A stretch of DNA of 40,827 bases. Origin: a virus. Below the pieces are notes generated by a model. That model was not told where the DNA came from. It was given only the letters and a program-made list of their open reading frames with translations, and ran no database searches. The DNA is taken from the IMG/VR virus record IMGVR_UViG_3300027805_000033, positions 1 to 40,827 of that record; one strand, written 5' to 3'. Position 1 is the first letter of the stretch; each line of letters opens with the position of its first letter. A program made the position numbers and the translations under genes. This document shows, in pieces, positions 14,906 through 38,194 of the stretch.

Positions 14906-14928
14906 TTTGTAGATAGCGCGAGGCAAGG

Positions 14929-14960
14929 CCCCACCGGTAAAACGGTGGGGTTCTTTTTTG
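14929..14960 (+). terminator. Strong intrinsic terminator of the late operon
   Basis: CCCCACCG (14929-14936), loop GTAAAA, CGGTGGGG (14943-14950), followed by TTCTTTTTTG. This is a perfect 8-bp GC stem with a U-run, so it ends the rightward late transcript. The facing leftward gene (14965-15192) ends close by; in that direction there is no U-run. Confidence 0.9.
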
Positions 14961-14964
14961 TTGT

Positions 14965-15192
14965 CTAAATGTCTTCTTTGTCCAACGGACAGGGAGCTTT
15001 AAGTAGATTACCGCAGGAGGCGCACTGCACATCGAGTGCATACCAAGAGATTTCATAGTCATCGAACTGGACGTAGGTATTAAAGACAGTACATCCGCAG
15101 GAGCAGGCGTGTGTTGGACCGATAGATCTCAGGTCAGCAGCCTTGATAGATGGTAGGCTATTTTTCCGCAGCCTTGGTAGACGGAGACGCAT
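14965..15192 (-). CDS. Small zinc-ribbon protein
   Basis: A 75-residue leftward protein. A basic N terminus (MRLRLPRLRKNSL) is followed by CSCGC and, 32 residues later, CASC, then a CPLDKED end. The two cysteine pairs with VQFDDYEISWYALDVQ between them fit a rubredoxin-knuckle zinc ribbon. The ATG at 15192 has AGGAAGGAG about 12 bases upstream; a longer frame to 15330 starts inside the promoter region and has an implausible Arg-rich composition. It is alone on its strand, facing the end of the late operon, and reads from the divergent region 15193-15356. The function is unknown; an early regulator is possible. Confidence 0.7.
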   Translation of the reverse strand: MRLRLPRLRKNSLPSIKAADLRSIGPTHACSCGCTVFNTYVQFDDYEISWYALDVQCASCGNLLKAPCPLDKEDI

Positions 15193-15356
15193 TGCTCGGC
15201 ACGGCTCCTTCCTGTGGTCAGTCGCCTCTCGGCCTTCTAACCTACGGCCTCGGCCCCGTAAGGGGTACCGTTTAATTCGCCTTCGGCTCATATTATACAA
15301 ATCCGCTGGAGTGTCGGACTGGTACGACACGCCGTAGGTAGGAGTATGATTCCGCT
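15193..15356. promoter_or_regulatory. Divergent promoter region with dyads
   Basis: This 164-base gap separates a leftward and a rightward gene. TATAAT lies on the minus strand at 15297-15292 and, because the site is near-symmetric, TATTAT on the plus strand at 15291-15296. No strong -35 was seen for either. The rightward leader has a perfect hairpin GTGTCG (15311-15316) / CGACAC (15325-15330), and the leftward leader has CCCC/GGGG and GGCC-rich stems. An actinobacterial extended -10 promoter or a phage-activated promoter would fit. WhiB or the sigma-like factor of this phage could act here; inference. Confidence 0.55.
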
Positions 15357-15920
15357 ATGACAACATTGGTAGGTGTGCAACTCGAAGATCGAGTTGTGAT
15401 GGCAGCAGATAGTCAGATTACTGAAGATAACTTGAGGACCGTTAGTACTTCGACTCCGAAAATAATTCACGTCGGTAAGTATCTGCTAGGCATTACGGGC
15501 GATACTCGACCTGGTGACATCCTTACCTATAACTGGAAACCGCCTGTCTATAAGGGAGCTGACCCGATACAGTGGATGGGTACCAAGATTATGCCGTCGA
15601 TACTCACGGCATTCAAAGAGAATGGATACGAACCATATGACGCGACCAAAGAAAAAGAAGCAGGGTTCGACTACCTTGTATCGTTTAATGGCAACCTCTT
15701 CCATATTGCGACGGACCTTTCTTTCATCCAATCAGACTCCGCGATTTACGGACTTGGTAGCGGTGGTCAGTTTGCTCTTGGTTATCTTTATGATCGCTTG
15801 GGCCGCCTTACTCTCGGCAATATAGAAAGACACGCCGAACGTGCCGTTCAAATAGCATCGATGCTTGACATCAATACCTGTCCTCCGATTCAATTAGTTA
15901 CTCAAAGGAGGGAGTTCTAA
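15357..15920 (+). CDS. Proteasome-beta/HslV-like Ntn-hydrolase
   Basis: A 187-residue protein with the layout of 20S proteasome beta and HslV peptidases. After removal of Met the first residue is Thr, the nucleophile (TTLVGVQLEDRVVMAADSQ). Asp17 of the mature chain is in the MAADS motif, and a Lys sits at position 34, one residue off the usual Lys33. LLGITGD matches the Gly-rich strand. YGLGSGGQFALGYLYD carries the conserved GSG, and ASMLDINT fits the Asp166 element with Thr where Ser169 is usual. Start: a stop codon lies just upstream in frame, so ATG 15357 is the only start and leaves Thr at the N terminus without a propeptide. TAGGAG lies 12 bases upstream. It is the first gene of the rightward early operon; no partner ATPase, Pup or HslU was found. 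It would cut peptides inside a ring; the target is unknown. Confidence 0.85.
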   Translation: MTTLVGVQLEDRVVMAADSQITEDNLRTVSTSTPKIIHVGKYLLGITGDTRPGDILTYNWKPPVYKGADPIQWMGTKIMPSILTAFKENGYEPYDATKEKEAGFDYLVSFNGNLFHIATDLSFIQSDSAIYGLGSGGQFALGYLYDRLGRLTLGNIERHAERAVQIASMLDINTCPPIQLVTQRREF

Positions 15921-16102
15921 TGCAATCAGATTACGGCAGATATACGGTTCATATCAACCGTCATTATCTATCTAACTTTGCTTTAGGTATTGACTATTAC
16001 CAGCTTTATGCCTACCCTGAAGGGGAGCACGAAGCATCAATCTTTCAGTTGAACTTTTTATTTTTTAACGTTACGATTACGAGGTGGCAGAAGTGGATAT
16101 AA
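15920..16102 (+). CDS. Hypothetical protein, 60 aa
   Basis: 60 residues, Tyr/Phe/His rich (YGRYTVHINRHYLSNFALG, YYQLYAYPEGEHE, FQLNFLFFNVTITRW). No family recognised. The start is TAATG-coupled to the peptidase gene, with AAAGGAGGGAG upstream, and its end overlaps the nuclease gene by 19 bases. The good ribosome site and coupling support a true gene. Confidence 0.65.
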   Translation: MQSDYGRYTVHINRHYLSNFALGIDYYQLYAYPEGEHEASIFQLNFLFFNVTITRWQKWI

Positions 16103-17031
16103 AAGAACTATTAGTGAAGGCTCTTCACGATAAAGAGAACTCACGGCCTCGATCTACACAGGTCCAGATTGGCCCTTCAGAATTGGGTGGGTGCCGCCGT
16201 AAGGTTTGGTACCGACTCAACAACCAGCCAGAGACAAACGACAATGAGTTAAAGCTCGCTGCCATTATGGGTACAGCCATACACTCAGCAATCGAGAATG
16301 CTTTTGCTGGTAACAACTCAATACTGCTGGAGACTACCGTCGAGTATGGTGGTATGAAGGCACACGTCGATGCGTTCCTGCCGGACACAGGAGATGTTAT
16401 CGACTGGAAGACAGTGAAGGCTAAGAACCTAAGCTACTTCCCAAGCCAGCAACAACGCTGGCAAGTTCAGGTCTATGGCTACCTTATTGAAAAGTCGGGG
16501 AAGGGGAAGCCTCGTACTGTCAATCTGGTAGCCATACCAAGAGATGGCGATGAGCGAGATATCAAGGTTCACTCTGAACCCTACGATGAAGCCATTGCAC
16601 TAGAGGCGCTAGCCTGGCTAGAGGCCATTAAAGAATCTGCTGATACACCAGCACCAGAACGCGATGAGTCATACTGCAAGTTCTATTGCAAGTATTTTGA
16701 CCCATCAGGCGAGATGGGATGCGTTGGTCTAAAAAAAGAAGTTACAAAAACTGAACTGCCTATCATCCAAGATGAGGCAGCAGGTATGACTGTCTTGCAC
16801 TATGCACAGGTGGATGAAGAGATTAAAGTTTTAGAAGCAAAGAAGGAGTCTCTACGTGAGGCTCTATTAGGAATCACTGGAGTTACTAATACTGGATACG
16901 AGATCAAGTGGTCATCGACCCAGAGTAATACTGTCGACAAAGAAGCGGTGGAGAAAGCACTGGGCTTCGTGCCGATGAAGCAAGGTAAGGAAAGCACAAG
17001 GCTTTCCATTAAAAAAACTGGAGGAAAGTAA
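16084..17031 (+). CDS. PD-(D/E)XK exonuclease, Cas4/RecB-like
   Basis: 315 residues starting with GTG (a second GTG at 16093 is possible). Conserved elements in order: IGPSELGGCRRKVWYRL with an early Cys; MGTAIHSAIENAF; the nuclease core AHVDAFLPDTGDVIDWKTVK (D...D-x-K); the QVQVYGYLIEK helix; and a late Cys group YCKFYCKYFDPSGEMGC. One early and three late cysteines are as in Cas4/AddB-type nucleases with an Fe-S cluster. The C terminus has a helical segment (QVDEEIKVLEAKKESLREAL). It would degrade or trim DNA ends in phage recombination or replication. It lies next to WhiB and the RecA-like ATPase in the replication operon. Confidence 0.85.
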   Translation: MAEVDIKELLVKALHDKENSRPRSTQVQIGPSELGGCRRKVWYRLNNQPETNDNELKLAAIMGTAIHSAIENAFAGNNSILLETTVEYGGMKAHVDAFLPDTGDVIDWKTVKAKNLSYFPSQQQRWQVQVYGYLIEKSGKGKPRTVNLVAIPRDGDERDIKVHSEPYDEAIALEALAWLEAIKESADTPAPERDESYCKFYCKYFDPSGEMGCVGLKKEVTKTELPIIQDEAAGMTVLHYAQVDEEIKVLEAKKESLREALLGITGVTNTGYEIKWSSTQSNTVDKEAVEKALGFVPMKQGKESTRLSIKKTGGK

Positions 17032-17392: not shown

Positions 17393-17656
17393 ATGCGTGA
17401 GCCGCGTAACTACGAGGCTCCGCTATGTGCACAAACCGGAAGCGGGGATTCCTGGTTCCCAGAGGTTGGGTCCGGAACTTCTTACGAGATTAGATACGCT
17501 AGAAGTATATGTGGTCAGTGTATCCATCAAGCTGAATGTGCAGAATGGGGGATCAGATACGAACGATTCGGTATCTGGGGAGGCCTTACTGAACTTGATA
17601 GAAAGAACATTAGAAGAAAACAAAATATAATTCTGCAGGAGGGGAACATTGCTTAA
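17393..17656 (+). CDS. whiB: WhiB family Fe-S transcription regulator
   Basis: 87 residues with the WhiB signature: one Cys at residue 12, then CGQC and C (residues 40, 43, 49) forming the four-Cys [4Fe-4S] site, followed by the GIWGGLTE turn and a basic tail (RKNIRRKQ). WhiB proteins are found only in Actinobacteria and their phages; they bind the principal sigma factor and change promoter choice. Its presence fixes the host phylum. Phage WhiB homologues are thought to turn host transcription towards phage genes. The gene overlaps the next by eight bases. Confidence 0.93.
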   Translation: MREPRNYEAPLCAQTGSGDSWFPEVGSGTSYEIRYARSICGQCIHQAECAEWGIRYERFGIWGGLTELDRKNIRRKQNIILQEGNIA

Positions 17657-30969: not shown

Positions 30970-32706
30970 ATGCTTACATCCAAAGAGGTCATAGCGAAGG
31001 TAACGCGCCTTCAGACTCGTTACGCTAAACGCGACCAGCGTATGCGTGACGTGCTATCAGTGCGTCAAGGAGATATCTCCAAGGTCTATCCTGCTATGTT
31101 CTCTGAGGATTATCCAAGACCGCTAGTAGCAAACTTTATTGATGTAGCTGCTCGTGACTTGGCAGAGGCTATGGCACCGCTTCCAGCCTTTGAATGCTCT
31201 GCAACAAATATGGTTTCAGATCAGGCTCGTAAGCAAGCCGATACTAGAACCCGCATTGCTAACTATTACGTTTCATCATCTGACCTACAGATACAAATGT
31301 ATTCTGGAGCAGACTGGTTTAACACCTACGGTATGCTCCCTGCAATCGTTGAGATGGATTACGAGACAAACAATCCTAGAATTCGTCTACTAAATCCTTT
31401 TGGAGTCTATCCAGAAATCGATAGATTCGGTAGAACTATCTCTATTACCCAGGTAGTTCAATCCGATGCAGAGACTATTGCTTCACAATACCCAGAGTTT
31501 GCCAAGCAAATCCTCGGCGGTAACTCCTACATCAACAACTCTCCTTATGTTTCTTTAGTTCGCTACCACGACAAAGACCAAGATTTAATCTTCTTACCTG
31601 AACGACAGAATCTAGTCCTTGCTAATATCCCCAATCCAATCGGCAGATGTTTAGCATCGGTAGCAGTTCGTGCATCCCTTGACGGTGAAGCTCGTGGACA
31701 ATTCGATGATGTTCTAGCGGTACAACTAGCACGTGCTCGTTTTGCTGTGCTACAAATTCAAGCAGCAGAAAAATCTATCCAAGCACCGATTGCTATTCCG
31801 CAGGATGTCCAAGAACTTGCTCTTGGCCCTGATGCGATTATGCGTTCTGCTAATCCCCAAGCAATTCGTCGAGTGCCGCTAGAACTTCCTCCTGGAGTAT
31901 TTGCTGAATCTGGAGTCTTAGAGCGAGAACTACGTCTCGGCTCACGTTACCCTGAAGTACGTAGCGGTAACTTAGATGCCTCCGTCGTCACCGGTCGCGG
32001 TGTACAGGCGTTGCAGGCTGGTTTTGATACACAAATCCGCAGCGCTCAAGCGCAGTTTGCCCGTCTCTTTACAGATATGGTTGCAATGTGCTTTGAGGTA
32101 GACGAGAAAATCTTTGGCAATATGACCAAAGAGATTCGCGGCTCTGAAGATGGCACACCATTTTCAATGAAGTATGTTCCATCTCGCGCCATTGGCGGCG
32201 AGTATGGAGTAGATGTTCGCTACGGAATTATGTCTGGTATGGATCCTAACCGTGCCATCATTGCGCTATTACAGATGCGTAGCGATAAGTTAGTTTCGCG
32301 TGATTATGTACGTCGTGAAATTCCGATGGAGCTTAATGTTACTCAAGAAGAACAACGTGTGGATATTGAAGAGATGCGTGATTCTCTCCGTGTTGCTGTT
32401 GCTCAGTACGCCCAGGCTATTCCAGCGCTTGCTGCACAAGGCCAAGATCCTTCTCAAATCGTTTCCCGAATCGCGGAAGTCATTAAGGGTCGTCAAAAAG
32501 GCAAGCAGTTAGAAACAATTATTCAAGAAGTATTTGAGCCTGAAGAGCCAGAGGTCCCAGAAGAAATGATGGGCGCACAAGTTCCAGCAGCAGGTATGGC
32601 CCCAGCCCCTGCCTCGCAGCCTAATCCAGAAATGATGACTGGTGCGGCCCCTGCTGCTGGCGCTCGTCCCGATATAGCAAGTTTGCTCGCGCAAATCGCA
32701 GGTTGA
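30970..32706 (+). CDS. Portal protein
   Basis: 578 residues. The N terminus (SKEVIAKVTRLQTRYAKRDQ), the wing-like beta part (YGMLPAIVEMDYETNNPRIR, LLNPFGVYPEIDRFGR), the long stem helix region (EARGQFDDVLAVQLARARFA) and the C-terminal Pro/Ala/Met tail (EEPEVPEEMMGAQVPAAGMA) agree with phage portals, and it follows terminase as usual. It forms the 12-fold ring through which DNA enters and leaves. GAGGAATAA lies before the ATG. Confidence 0.85.
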   Translation: MLTSKEVIAKVTRLQTRYAKRDQRMRDVLSVRQGDISKVYPAMFSEDYPRPLVANFIDVAARDLAEAMAPLPAFECSATNMVSDQARKQADTRTRIANYYVSSSDLQIQMYSGADWFNTYGMLPAIVEMDYETNNPRIRLLNPFGVYPEIDRFGRTISITQVVQSDAETIASQYPEFAKQILGGNSYINNSPYVSLVRYHDKDQDLIFLPERQNLVLANIPNPIGRCLASVAVRASLDGEARGQFDDVLAVQLARARFAVLQIQAAEKSIQAPIAIPQDVQELALGPDAIMRSANPQAIRRVPLELPPGVFAESGVLERELRLGSRYPEVRSGNLDASVVTGRGVQALQAGFDTQIRSAQAQFARLFTDMVAMCFEVDEKIFGNMTKEIRGSEDGTPFSMKYVPSRAIGGEYGVDVRYGIMSGMDPNRAIIALLQMRSDKLVSRDYVRREIPMELNVTQEEQRVDIEEMRDSLRVAVAQYAQAIPALAAQGQDPSQIVSRIAEVIKGRQKGKQLETIIQEVFEPEEPEVPEEMMGAQVPAAGMAPAPASQPNPEMMTGAAPAAGARPDIASLLAQIAG

Positions 32707-33109: not shown

Positions 33110-33503
33110 AGGTCCATTAGCAGGAGCGTCAGGCCCTGGCAAGTTCTCCAAGAGAACTGATTTGAATATGGGTTCTATTGCATACGGCGAAGGTGTAGAA
33201 ACCGCTGCTATTAAAAGCGGTGCACCAATGGCAAAAACACCAAGTGTTAATCCTACATCTCTATCTGAGCAGGGAATGGCACCTAGCCAACTAGAAAGAG
33301 TCACACCACTGTACGCACCAACACAACGTACCGATGAACCAATCACAGCAGGTATTCCTATGGGTGCTGGTCCTGGACCAGAAGTACTAGGTGCTGGACC
33401 TATGCGTCAAAAAACATCTGATGCACTTGCAAAGATGATTCCATTTGACACTACAGGTGAAATAACAATTCTTTACCAACAAGCCTTGGCACGAGGTGAT
33501 TAG
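33102..33503 (+). CDS. Virion-associated Gly/Pro-rich protein
   Basis: 133 residues with low-complexity GPLAGASGPGKFSKR, then PTQRTDEPITAGIPMGAGPG, and a helical end (DALAKMIPFDTTGEITILYQ). AGGAGG lies before the ATG. Coupled by TAGTG to the giant protein that follows. A role as internal virion or head-completion protein is inferred from place. Confidence 0.6.
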   Translation: MARGPLAGASGPGKFSKRTDLNMGSIAYGEGVETAAIKSGAPMAKTPSVNPTSLSEQGMAPSQLERVTPLYAPTQRTDEPITAGIPMGAGPGPEVLGAGPMRQKTSDALAKMIPFDTTGEITILYQQALARGD

Positions 33504-36500
33504 TGGCTGACAAATTCACAGCAGCCGCAGCCGCTGCTGGCTTAACCCCGGAAGAGCGCAAGCGAATTGAGAATCTAAGCAAAACAATCGCTAGCCATAG
33601 AGAACTTTCCAATCTGCCAGCAAACGTTGCGAAACAAGCATACGACTCAAAAACACCAGCACAACAACAGGCTTTAACTTCTGTTGCTGGAACTCAGCAA
33701 GCCCCGCGTCGCGGATGGTTGAGCACTGCTTGGCATTACACCCTTGGTGGCGCAGTTAATGTTCTAACCGAACTTTCTGATTTATCTACTCGCGCTTATC
33801 GAGCTGCCGCAATTCCATTATCACGTGGTGATATTGGTTTTGCTTGGGATGAAGCAAATGACAAAGGCGATACCGTATTTAACAAGGGTCGCGTTGAAGA
33901 TGCCCGTAAGAAGTTTGGTAATGCAACGGTCAATGTTGCACTTCAGGTAGCACAAGGTAAGAAACTATCTGACATTATCAACGTTGGAACTGAAGAAGAA
34001 AAGCAAGTTGCTCGTGTAGCACAGACTGGCGTCAAGTTACAGAATGGAACTTTAGACGGCGGAATCTTTCAGGATGCTTTAGATGCAGTCCAGGCTGCTA
34101 AGTATTCACCAGGTCGTCAGTTAGCTAACTTTTTACTGCCTGGTCAACTAGAAGGCTCAGGTCTTTTGTACCGCACCATCTCTGGTGTAACCGATGCTGC
34201 CTTTAGAATTGTTGCAGATCCTACCCTTGTAGCAGGAAAAGCAAAACGTTTATTTGATGTAAGTAGATATGCTGTTGATGTAGTAATCGGCGGCAATAAA
34301 GTGGACGAAGTATTTGCTCGTCCAGCCGTACAAAATTTTTGGAATGACTACGGTGCAAGTCTAAAGAAACTTAAGGATGCTACCGACAAAGGTGCAATGG
34401 ATGAGGCAGTAGCGGCCCGTAATAGGCTTAAAGCCTTAGCCCCTGAGTTTGGTCCTGCTGTAATCAATGCTTTCCTAAAAGCAGATGTCCCTGTAGAAAA
34501 CGCCCTTACTGCTAAAGCCTTCTTTGGGAATGCAAAGCAGGTAGATGAAATATTCTCTGGACAAGTCGGGCGCAAGCGCGTCTTGATTCCTAAACTAGAC
34601 CCACTACGTCAAATCCGCGTAGCAACAGTAACAACCGCTAATAGAATTTTTGACCTAGACCGTATGGGTTCTAAGTTTGTAGACGACCTATTTTTCGGTG
34701 GCGCTTCTACTACTGATGGTATCGCCGAGAAATTAATCAATGGTCGTAAAGAGATTGTTGAGCAGGTAACAGCCAATGAATCGTCTAAAGGTATAGCTAG
34801 ATTCTCAACGGCTATGATTCAACGTCGTTTAGATAGATTTAAGTCTAAGTTTGAGCGCATTCCATTCTTTGAGAATAATCAATTTAATGTATTAGAAAAA
34901 GATGCACAGACCAAGATTTACCAAATGGCACGTTTAGTATTGCCACAACGTGAGTCTAAGTTAATCTCCGAAGCATTTGGTGCTACAGAACAACTTGGTA
35001 AGCGTAAAGAAATTTTTTATGGCCTACAAGGTACTATTGCCGAAATTCGTGGTTTGAATGTAACTAAAGAAGGCAAGACTATCTTTGATGAAATCAGCGG
35101 TCGAGTCAAGCCAATGCACGCAGCTCGTAATGCTGATGGATATAACCCATCGCTTTTACCTAACGGCGAATCCGTAGCGCTTATCCTTTCGGATAACTCC
35201 GACTTTGTATCTACCTTAAGCCTACGCGATCTTGATAGAGCTTCTGCTCGGTCGGGCATAATCCAGCGTATGCTCGGTGTAGGTCACTCTAACTGGGTAG
35301 AGAAGATGACTTCTTACTGGTCATTCTTAACTCTTGCTGGTCCTCGTTACGCTGTTCGTAACGCAACAGAAGACTTGCTTGTTCACCTTGCAATCGGTGA
35401 ATCTCCTTGGGGATTGGTCAAAGGCCGTGCTCTTTCAACCCGTCTTCGTACTGCTCGTCAAGTTGAAAAGGGCTTGAGTGGTATGCAGAAGGTAGCCGAA
35501 ACTCCTCTTGGCAGCGTTATGCGTTTTGTCAATAAGAAAGAAGCAAAAGCCTACGGTGCAGCGATTGAAGCCGCACAAGGTGATGTAACTAAGGTCCGTG
35601 AGATTCTTGCTACCGCAATTAACGAAGGCAAGATTGCTCGATTCAACGAGCGTACTGGACTTGCTAAGTTTACTAAGGCTGACCGCGAACTACTTGCAGA
35701 GCAGATTCGCTTTGGTGACCTAGATAATGCTTTGGCTGACGTTGTAGAAGGTGGGCGTAATGCTTTCACCGGTATTGATTCTTACAATCGTACAGTTAAC
35801 TTTACTCGCAAGAACAAAGTTCGTACAGCAGAACTAACCTATACCTTACCTTCTAACTTCCGCAAAGCACGTGGTGGCAGGTTTAAGGAAATGGTACCTA
35901 CAGTTGCTGATGAATCTACCCTGGTAGCGCTTCTTATGCGTATCGGTTATTACTCTAACGATCGCTTGGGCGCTATTGCCGTTGCTAACTTGGCAGATGA
36001 TGTCGCTGAAGAAACAGTAGCGGTAACTAAGATATTCCAATGGCTAGATGACCCGAAGAATGCTAAGTTGGTTTCGGCATTCCGCCTTGAAGAAAACGGT
36101 GTATCTAAGCAAGAACACGCACAACGGGTTTATGATGCTGCAAAGCAACTATTCGTAAAGCGTGACGGCAAGCTGAATAACAACTTGCTAAACAAAGTCA
36201 GAGTCTTAGACGAAGCAACTGGTGAATATAAGATTGCTGGTCAGTTGACTATGGATGATTTGCCCAACATAGATGCAGACCTTCCAGACTTTATCGTAGG
36301 TCCAGCGCTAGTTCCTGTATCTGATTCAGATAACTACGCAGCTTCGATTATGGAGTGGGGTTGGGATTGGCTAGGCAATGCTAACGCCAGATTCTCCCGC
36401 GAACCTATGGTTTTATCTGAGGTAATTAAGATTCGTAAGCAGTTCAAGTCCAGCGGATTTGAGAACGCCTTTATTGCTGCATACAAGCGCGGCATAACAG

Positions 36501-38194
36501 ACCCAGATGGTCTAGCAAAAGCAGAACTTTCTGCCCGTCGTAAGTTGGCAGAGATTGCAGAAGATAGAGCAAGACTGCAAATCCTTGCATATGTTGATAA
36601 TCCTGCAGTACAAAGCCAGTTAGCATTCTCAGTTCGTAACTTTGCTCGTTTTTATCGCGCAACTGAAGACTTTTATCGCCGCTTTTACCGTGCAGTACGC
36701 TATAACCCTGAAGGATTAGCCCGTGCAGCCCTTACTTATGAGGGAATTACACACTCAGGCTTCGTCCAGAAGGACGATCAGGGTGAAGATTACTTCCTAT
36801 ACCCTGGAGTTCAGCAAGTTTATCGCGCTGTACAGACTGCAATGCAGGCTTTAGGTGTACCAGCAGAGTTCAAAGCACCACTTCCTGTAGAATTCGGTGC
36901 AAAACTTAAGATGATTACCCCATCTTTGAGCATTGACTCGGTAGTTCCTACCCTTGCTGGTCCATTATCTGGCGTATCTATCAAGGTTGTATCAAATCTT
37001 GTAAATATCTTTAGCCCAGGTGCAGCAGATACAATTACTCGCGTAACTCTTGGTAAGTATGCTGAGGGTCAGCCAATGGTTTCAGCATTCTTGCCAGCCC
37101 ATATCAACCGTATTTACTCAGCAATGAACCAGAATGACCGTGATGGTCAGTATGCTTCAGCTTGGCGCAAGGCAGTTACTTACCTTGAAGCATCAGGTCA
37201 CGGCCTAAAGCAGAAATACACCACAGATGAAGAAGGTAATGAGGTAGCAGTTCCGTTCACCGCTGCAGAACTTGATGAATACCGTCGTAGAGTAAAGAAC
37301 ATTACTGTTGGTATCTTAGGTCTACGTGTTGTATATGGCTTTGTTGCTCCAGCATCACCACAAGTCACACTCAAGAGTGATATGGCTGACTGGGTTCGTG
37401 ATAACGGTGAGGCTTCATTCAAGCAAGTTTGGTACGGAATCCTAGATAAATCTGGCGATTACGACTCTGCTATGAAGGAATGGGTACGTCTATTCCCAGA
37501 TCAAATGCCATTTACGGTATCTGAATCAGAGCGTTCAACGGTTTCTTACTTCCGTTACGCACAGGAATCTGGTGACTTTGTAGACCAAAACCAAGAACTA
37601 TTCAAGCAGTTCAAGCAAGGCGCAGCCTTCTTGATACCGCATAAAGGCGGATTCTCTTGGGATGCTTACCGGACTATGACCGATATGGGTCTGCGTCAGA
37701 ATAAGCAAGTCGATTCTTTCTTGCGTGAGGCACAAGTTGCTGCAGATATGCAGACATACTATGAGCGTAAGAACGATTACGAGGCTTCACTTGAGAAAGT
37801 TGGTACGGACTTTGAGCGTCAACAACTACGTGCTGAGTGGACTAACTGGGCAACCCTATTCAAAGCAGGACGACCATTGGTACAGGAAGAACTAGCCCAA
37901 GGTGGACGTAAGGCTGTAGAACGCATTAATGCGCTTAATGATCTCAAGGCAATGCTTGATAGTGGCGCTGCGGATAAAGCAGCACCAGATACTGTAACCA
38001 AATTGCGCGAGATGACTGACCTATATTACCAATATAAAAAGGCTGTTGACCAACTTAACCTGATTAGCGGTGGTTCTACTTTAGCCCGTTGGGAAAAAGA
38101 TAACACAATAATCAAGATGCGTAAGTTGTCAGAGTTTAACGAAAACACAATGAACGCATATAACCTGTTGTTCGGAAGATTACTAGGAGACTAA
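33503..38194 (+). CDS. Giant internal virion / DNA-ejection protein
   Basis: 1563 residues, the largest gene, GTG start at the TAGTG overlap. Mostly helical with no transmembrane or coiled-coil tape pattern. Recognisable stretches: YTLGGAVNVLTELSDL near the N terminus, WSFLTLAGPRYAVRNATEDL at about residue 605 (a pattern seen in large internal proteins of phages), FSVRNFARFYRATEDFYRRF at about residue 1050, and VVPTLAGPLSGVSIKVVSNL. T7-like and related short-tailed phages carry such large internal core proteins, which leave the head with the DNA and build a channel through the cell envelope. No transglycosylase or peptidase motif was clear. With no tape measure elsewhere this is the best candidate for the ejection apparatus. 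Confidence 0.7.
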   Translation: MADKFTAAAAAAGLTPEERKRIENLSKTIASHRELSNLPANVAKQAYDSKTPAQQQALTSVAGTQQAPRRGWLSTAWHYTLGGAVNVLTELSDLSTRAYRAAAIPLSRGDIGFAWDEANDKGDTVFNKGRVEDARKKFGNATVNVALQVAQGKKLSDIINVGTEEEKQVARVAQTGVKLQNGTLDGGIFQDALDAVQAAKYSPGRQLANFLLPGQLEGSGLLYRTISGVTDAAFRIVADPTLVAGKAKRLFDVSRYAVDVVIGGNKVDEVFARPAVQNFWNDYGASLKKLKDATDKGAMDEAVAARNRLKALAPEFGPAVINAFLKADVPVENALTAKAFFGNAKQVDEIFSGQVGRKRVLIPKLDPLRQIRVATVTTANRIFDLDRMGSKFVDDLFFGGASTTDGIAEKLINGRKEIVEQVTANESSKGIARFSTAMIQRRLDRFKSKFERIPFFENNQFNVLEKDAQTKIYQMARLVLPQRESKLISEAFGATEQLGKRKEIFYGLQGTIAEIRGLNVTKEGKTIFDEISGRVKPMHAARNADGYNPSLLPNGESVALILSDNSDFVSTLSLRDLDRASARSGIIQRMLGVGHSNWVEKMTSYWSFLTLAGPRYAVRNATEDLLVHLAIGESPWGLVKGRALSTRLRTARQVEKGLSGMQKVAETPLGSVMRFVNKKEAKAYGAAIEAAQGDVTKVREILATAINEGKIARFNERTGLAKFTKADRELLAEQIRFGDLDNALADVVEGGRNAFTGIDSYNRTVNFTRKNKVRTAELTYTLPSNFRKARGGRFKEMVPTVADESTLVALLMRIGYYSNDRLGAIAVANLADDVAEETVAVTKIFQWLDDPKNAKLVSAFRLEENGVSKQEHAQRVYDAAKQLFVKRDGKLNNNLLNKVRVLDEATGEYKIAGQLTMDDLPNIDADLPDFIVGPALVPVSDSDNYAASIMEWGWDWLGNANARFSREPMVLSEVIKIRKQFKSSGFENAFIAAYKRGITDPDGLAKAELSARRKLAEIAEDRARLQILAYVDNPAVQSQLAFSVRNFARFYRATEDFYRRFYRAVRYNPEGLARAALTYEGITHSGFVQKDDQGEDYFLYPGVQQVYRAVQTAMQALGVPAEFKAPLPVEFGAKLKMITPSLSIDSVVPTLAGPLSGVSIKVVSNLVNIFSPGAADTITRVTLGKYAEGQPMVSAFLPAHINRIYSAMNQNDRDGQYASAWRKAVTYLEASGHGLKQKYTTDEEGNEVAVPFTAAELDEYRRRVKNITVGILGLRVVYGFVAPASPQVTLKSDMADWVRDNGEASFKQVWYGILDKSGDYDSAMKEWVRLFPDQMPFTVSESERSTVSYFRYAQESGDFVDQNQELFKQFKQGAAFLIPHKGGFSWDAYRTMTDMGLRQNKQVDSFLREAQVAADMQTYYERKNDYEASLEKVGTDFERQQLRAEWTNWATLFKAGRPLVQEELAQGGRKAVERINALNDLKAMLDSGAADKAAPDTVTKLREMTDLYYQYKKAVDQLNLISGGSTLARWEKDNTIIKMRKLSEFNENTMNAYNLLFGRLLGD

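Follow-up and report, generated by a model that had tools for sequence, protein, structure and literature searches.

A proteasome-like Ntn hydrolase as a core gene product of a family of freshwater actinophages

Phage-encoded proteasome homologues have been known as a kind since 2021, when Fuchs, Alva and Lupas reported 22 new homologues of the proteasome, including phage PPH and AAH (PMC8665760). According to that survey, no unfoldase is known for BPH, and the acidic pore loop of BPH is linked to the absence of an unfoldase; HslV carries no mark for Actinobacteria (its table 1), and the authors could find no phage specific to Actinobacteria that has AAH (PMC8665760). Our literature search found no functional assignment for any phage homologue of the proteasome. 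Here we compare these systems with a peptidase gene in the window, by which we mean the whole 40,827-nt stretch of viral DNA analyzed (IMG/VR record IMGVR_UViG_3300027805_000033).

The gene product, which begins with Met-Thr-Thr, had been read by eye in a preliminary description as a proteasome-like Thr peptidase resembling HslV and the proteasome beta subunit. PHROG 1040, 'peptidase HslV family', matches the whole protein (E 2.6e-24), and Pfam Proteasome (PF00227) passes its curated threshold (31.7 bits, cut-off 22.4) over an aligned stretch confined to residues 2-49; the NCBIfam matches, to HslV and archaeal beta, were weak and fell well short of the cut-offs (27-28 bits for the HslV equivalog against 137-158). 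Comparison of the family profile with the PDB returned BPH at E 2e-16, HslV at 1.7e-11 and 20S beta at about 2e-7. The AlphaFold2 model, a single chain computed from the window protein and 49 homologues, was confident (pLDDT 87.7, pTM 0.84) and took the four-layer Ntn sandwich rather than any other fold, with predicted helices H1-H4 all present (residues 50-59, 70-88, 137-146 and 156-170) and a charged, low-confidence loop past the second helix (residues 89-103). A Foldseek search against the PDB ranked BPH first (E 1.5e-12; TM 0.75-0.78), followed by HslV and 20S beta. Profiles and fold thus agree with the reading by eye, and the window protein is, as judged from sequence and model, very probably an intact Thr Ntn hydrolase. 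The proposed likeness to HslV and proteasome beta held for family and fold, but the protein is nearer to BPH and to the phage and rhizobial group I homologues than to HslV, Anbu or 20S beta.

The active-site elements listed earlier (Asp17, a Lys, GxxGD, GSG and Asp-x-x-Thr) are all present and in proteasome order. The N-terminal Thr/Ser, Asp17, Lys33 and Gly47, which form the proteasome-family set, are conserved throughout 152 aligned homologue rows (Table 1), so that neither of the outcomes named beforehand as refuting the reading, a different fold or unconserved Thr2/Asp18, was observed. The Asp166 equivalent is Asp in 117 rows and Asn in 35, and the Ser169 equivalent is Thr in 144, Ser in 6 and Cys in 2. 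Two residues had been suggested to tune activity, and neither is such a change, since Lys34 is the proteasome Lys33 displaced by a one-residue insertion and Thr in Asp-x-x-Thr is the family norm. Estimates of dN/dS against the window gene, covering 25 non-redundant relatives, were 0.07-0.19, indicating strong purifying selection; together with the invariant catalytic residues, they argue that an enzyme with a proteasome-type active site is maintained. As described before, the protein starts MTT with no propeptide, and removal of Met would expose Thr1. The gene product is thus apparently a catalytically competent, propeptide-less Thr peptidase. Asn at the Asp166 equivalent (window residue 171) was seen in an E7-type subclade (NNNGT/NNNET); this Asn and Thr at the Ser129 equivalent, both second-shell changes, could alter activity.

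In the phylogenetic analysis the window protein grouped with those of DSL-LC01, Pumpernickel and Hum25 in an actinophage clade (support 97/92). The phrog_1040 members of this clade, from Actinomycetia phage DSL-LC01 (WJZ48484) and the Planktophila phages E7 and F5, match over the full length at about 30-35% identity. DSL-LC01 resembles the window in that WhiB adjoins the peptidase gene and differs in a basic C-terminal tail, whereas in E7 and F5 the peptidase gene lies behind the portal gene and not in an early operon. Sister to the actinophage clade is one of rhizobial, Streptomyces-plasmid and Bacillus-plasmid homologues, of which the rhizobial and Streptomyces ones are of similar length and have no extra domains; their range fits AAH, and they are probably AAH. 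The window protein is sister to this clade and not inside it, the AAH reference set being itself assigned by inference. AAH-like rows show an MTCIVGL start, FTSSFRMGQLL and GCGE, against GDxRPGDIL and GSGG in the window type. Whether AAH or the sister of AAH, the actinophage clade bears on the gap noted in 2021 (PMC8665760). The nitrogen-fixation cluster of Sinorhizobium symbiotic plasmids contains a related Ntn hydrolase (L326 3001-3546 and L328 2001-2546), located between nifQ and the iron-sulfur assembly/nifS genes. The homologue of a Streptomyces plasmid (L324 2914-4442) adjoins a gene for a 3'-5' exonuclease, and the window operon also has an exonuclease.

Among solved structures, BPH (PDB 5ovs, 5ovt and 5ovu) comes closest in both profile and fold and has the same helices, and by alignment the window loop 89-103 is about as long as its acidic pore loop; yet identity in the Foldseek alignments is 22-23%, and a separate clade of bacterial BPH-like rows (branch-test support 98/91) leaves the window protein outside. 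PPH is likewise a phage-encoded group I Ntn hydrolase, but at about 140 aa and without helix H2 (PMC8665760) it is ruled out by the length of the window protein (187 aa) and its four helices. HslV (PDB 1m4y and 1e94) shares the fold and the catalytic set and forms a long-branch outgroup in the tree; HslV proper is ruled out by the NCBIfam cut-offs and by finding no hslU among the scanned window proteins.

A single-protein scan of IMG/VR yielded at least 595 relatives of the window peptidase. When records were instead selected by terminase, 12 of 16 carried the gene, including all eight contigs above 30 kb, the four without it being fragments of 20-28 kb. The peptidase gene belongs to the core of a large freshwater actinophage family. 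The TerL, portal and capsid proteins of the window are 46, 51 and 51% identical to those of Planktophila phages E7 and F5 (OX376640/OX376641), and Streptomyces phages are also relatives in the head genes (e.g. Immanuel3, TerL 43%); in the Immanuel3 genome the homologous head genes are present and the peptidase gene was not found. Window GC is about 46%, against 46.5% for Ca. Planktophila LanE-43, the host of E7 and F5 (PMC10202952). WhiB is an actinophage marker (PMC10202952, PMC6802176). On the strength of WhiB, the E7/F5 and Streptomyces phage relatives and the GC match, the most likely host is an actinobacterium from fresh water, of the Ca. Nanopelagicales type. The literature search found no paper on a proteasome of this host; the Planktophila phage paper mentions genes degrading host proteins (PMC10202952). 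Scanning genome contigs with the single protein confirmed no bacterial or prophage copies, and scanning with the alignment as query returned four Pseudomonadota loci and no others; in a sample of 398 Pseudomonadota, 13 had a match, mostly BPH-like by sequence.

In the window lineage the peptidase gene shares an operon with genes for an exonuclease, WhiB and DnaB (Table 1). A homologue of the Cys-rich gene, whose product matched no Pfam family, lies directly upstream on the opposite strand in 101 of 101 loci with enough flank, and the exonuclease gene follows downstream. With this conserved divergent start and the upstream terminator-like hairpin, the earlier proposal that the gene opens an early operon stands, 'early' referring to gene content only, and homologues indeed occupy the same place in related phages of this lineage. 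Between the divergent genes lies a promoter-like element which is present once in the window, occurred in 0 of 100 shuffles and has its core matched in 109 loci. A scan for the sigma-70 consensus on the plus strand upstream of the gene found no site, and the element emerged from conservation instead; we infer that the conserved stretch around CGGCTCATATTRTA is a promoter. It is followed by the inverted repeat GTGTCG...CGACACGCCG, whose loop varies among related loci; it may be an operator or a hairpin in the 5' leader, and some of its changes may be compensatory. Scans of the 41 window proteins against PHROGs, and of some of them against Pfam, recognized no AAA+ unfoldase, Pup or HslU, in keeping with the preliminary description.

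Table 1. Features of the peptidase locus (window coordinates; residue counts from 152 aligned homologue rows)
Feature	Positions	Strand	Evidence or remark
Terminator-like hairpin with T run, closing the preceding operon	14927..14952	+	Predicted site
Divergent small Cys-rich protein (zinc-ribbon-like by eye)	14965..15192	-	ATG start hand-picked
Promoter-like element TTCGCCTTCGGCTCATATTATA in divergent intergenic region	15276..15297	+	Conserved across 26 aligned non-redundant loci
Inverted repeat GTGTCG-N8-CGACAC just 5' of peptidase start	15311..15330	+	Conserved
Proteasome-like Ntn hydrolase (group I), without propeptide, 187 aa	15357..15920	+	Profiles, predicted fold, conservation
Predicted catalytic Thr1 (after Met removal), Thr2 codon	15360..15362	+	Thr 150/152, Ser 2/152
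Asp17 of triad, Asp18 codon	15408..15410	+	152/152
Lys33 of triad, Lys35 codon	15459..15461	+	152/152
Gly47 (oxyanion hole) in GITGD, Gly48 codon	15498..15500	+	152/152
Ser129 equivalent in GSGG, Ser135 codon	15759..15761	+	Ser 121/152, Thr 31/152
D-I-N-T, Asp166/Ser169 equivalents (residues 171/174)	15867..15878	+	Conservation count
60-aa ORF overlapping peptidase stop	15920..16102	+	Homologues in 110 loci
Cas4/RecB-like PD-(D/E)XK exonuclease, next operon gene	16084..17031	+	Downstream in 110/110 loci
WhiB-like regulator, actinophage marker	17393..17656	+	At most 3.5 kb downstream in 107/110 loci
Portal protein	30970..32706	+	In E7/F5 relatives, peptidase gene directly behind portal homologue

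In the lineage of E7, F5 and related phages, sister to that of the window, the one peptidase copy lies directly behind the portal gene at 76 of 76 loci, a count that leaves aside the DSL-LC01-type, Pumpernickel and bacterial rows as other lineages; the position between portal and capsid genes is occupied in 0 of 101 loci of the window lineage. In E7 the gene begins 17 nt past the portal stop and ends in a stop codon that overlaps the start of the next gene. Two E7-type loci (L084 7480-8040 and L305 9055-9590) exemplify head-operon copies as against the early-operon copy of the window. The two types of peptidase are about 30% identical, and no second copy at the alternative position was found in 30 records chosen by their peptidase gene, each of which has one copy. 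In the tree, the early-operon form and the behind-portal form each make one clade (100/99), and 640 of 1000 bootstraps grouped them with each other (support 64/69). The two lineages stay apart in trees of TerL and portal, which include one Streptomyces outgroup. These groupings are compatible with either relocation or two acquisitions. The operon-leading position described earlier is borne out in the window lineage, and the host-takeover role proposed with it is weakened by the head-operon position in the sister lineage. Between the portal and capsid genes, the window itself has a gene for a 1563-aa protein (33503-38194), which matched no PHROG or Pfam family and has homologues in 15 related loci, that of E7 at about 25-28% identity.

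Early host takeover cannot account for all loci, nor can a head protease, since the operon that harbors the gene differs between the two lineages; the benefit is probably independent of one narrow time window. We consider it about an even bet that the protein is a stand-alone, BPH-like peptidase with no dedicated unfoldase, a model suggested by BPH as best match, the charged loop of BPH length and the absence of a recognized unfoldase in the window. With Thr1 exposed, the subunits would assemble into a BPH-like, self-compartmentalizing double ring, the four helices of the predicted model being of the kind that makes inter-subunit contacts, and the ring would work without a dedicated AAA+ unfoldase. 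Its substrates would be unfolded, damaged or small polypeptides of host and phage, and the benefit would be amino-acid recycling and proteostasis in infection, perhaps with particular targets. Because degrading such polypeptides would serve any stage of infection, retention in two operons fits this stand-alone model, and strictly early takeover or head maturation, each fitting only one lineage, fits less well. Against general clean-up, each lineage ties the gene strictly to one neighborhood, the exonuclease operon or the portal gene, which suggests more specific roles, and against an unfoldase-free ring, host proteins could be the source of an unfoldase.

Alternatively, the peptidase might bind a host AAA+ protein, either Mpa/ARC or a Clp ATPase, and redirect that unfoldase early in infection against chosen host proteins. 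This would suit a gene that stands at the head of an operon containing WhiB and replication genes, in a phage without an unfoldase of its own, but related family members have no co-occurring AAA+ partner (PMC8665760), the nearest relative BPH has none, and the E7/F5 copy sits in a head operon, so we regard docking as unlikely. The same E7/F5 position directly behind the portal gene speaks for a head-maturation or scaffold protease; this is nevertheless rather improbable given that the gene lies in the exonuclease/WhiB/DnaB operon in the window lineage, whose TerL, portal and capsid genes are homologous, that Immanuel3 does without a peptidase gene beside homologous head genes, and that homologues in large phages adjoin genes for PhoH, ThyX or thymidylate synthase. 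Counter-defence genes often sit at operon-leading positions, as the peptidase gene does, and it might remove a host antiviral protein or toxin. No PADLOC match was obtained, however, a single-copy core gene would be unusual for a variable arms-race function, and the position in E7/F5 is late, making counter-defence distinctly improbable.

Many Actinobacteria have a 20S proteasome, and the shared fold family might allow the protein to poison it by mixed assembly, as proposed earlier; the protein resembles 20S beta less than it does BPH or HslV, and a poison would not need the conserved active site, so that the proposal found no support and is extremely improbable. Proteasome-like proteins do vary in assembly and function, connectase being a monomeric ligase (PMC8665760), and the window protein could by analogy be a monomeric Ntn enzyme, either a specific ligase or a single-site protease, instead of a general peptidase. 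Connectase, however, lacks H1/H2 and carries a helical S3/S4 insertion, whereas the window model has four helices and no insertion, and the nearest solved relatives are ring peptidases; we hold a connectase-like enzyme to be highly unlikely.

More tentatively than the stand-alone model itself, and with a probability we set below even, the actinophages may have an old subfamily of their own, distinct from PPH, AAH, BPH and HslV, that is nearly essential as a 'solo proteasome' in abundant freshwater phages, its gene having moved between operons or been acquired twice and never lost. If true, this viral function would depend neither on an unfoldase nor on infection timing. The finding gains interest from the gene's core status in phages that are abundant and from its two genomic homes, which are a natural experiment on whether expression timing matters. 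Because a core gene under strong purifying selection has isolated representatives, E7 and F5, on a cultured host, its role is directly testable. The two genomes (OX376640.1 and OX376641.1) are filed without annotation as 'Caudovirales sp. ct2KA10', which is why searches by name miss them.
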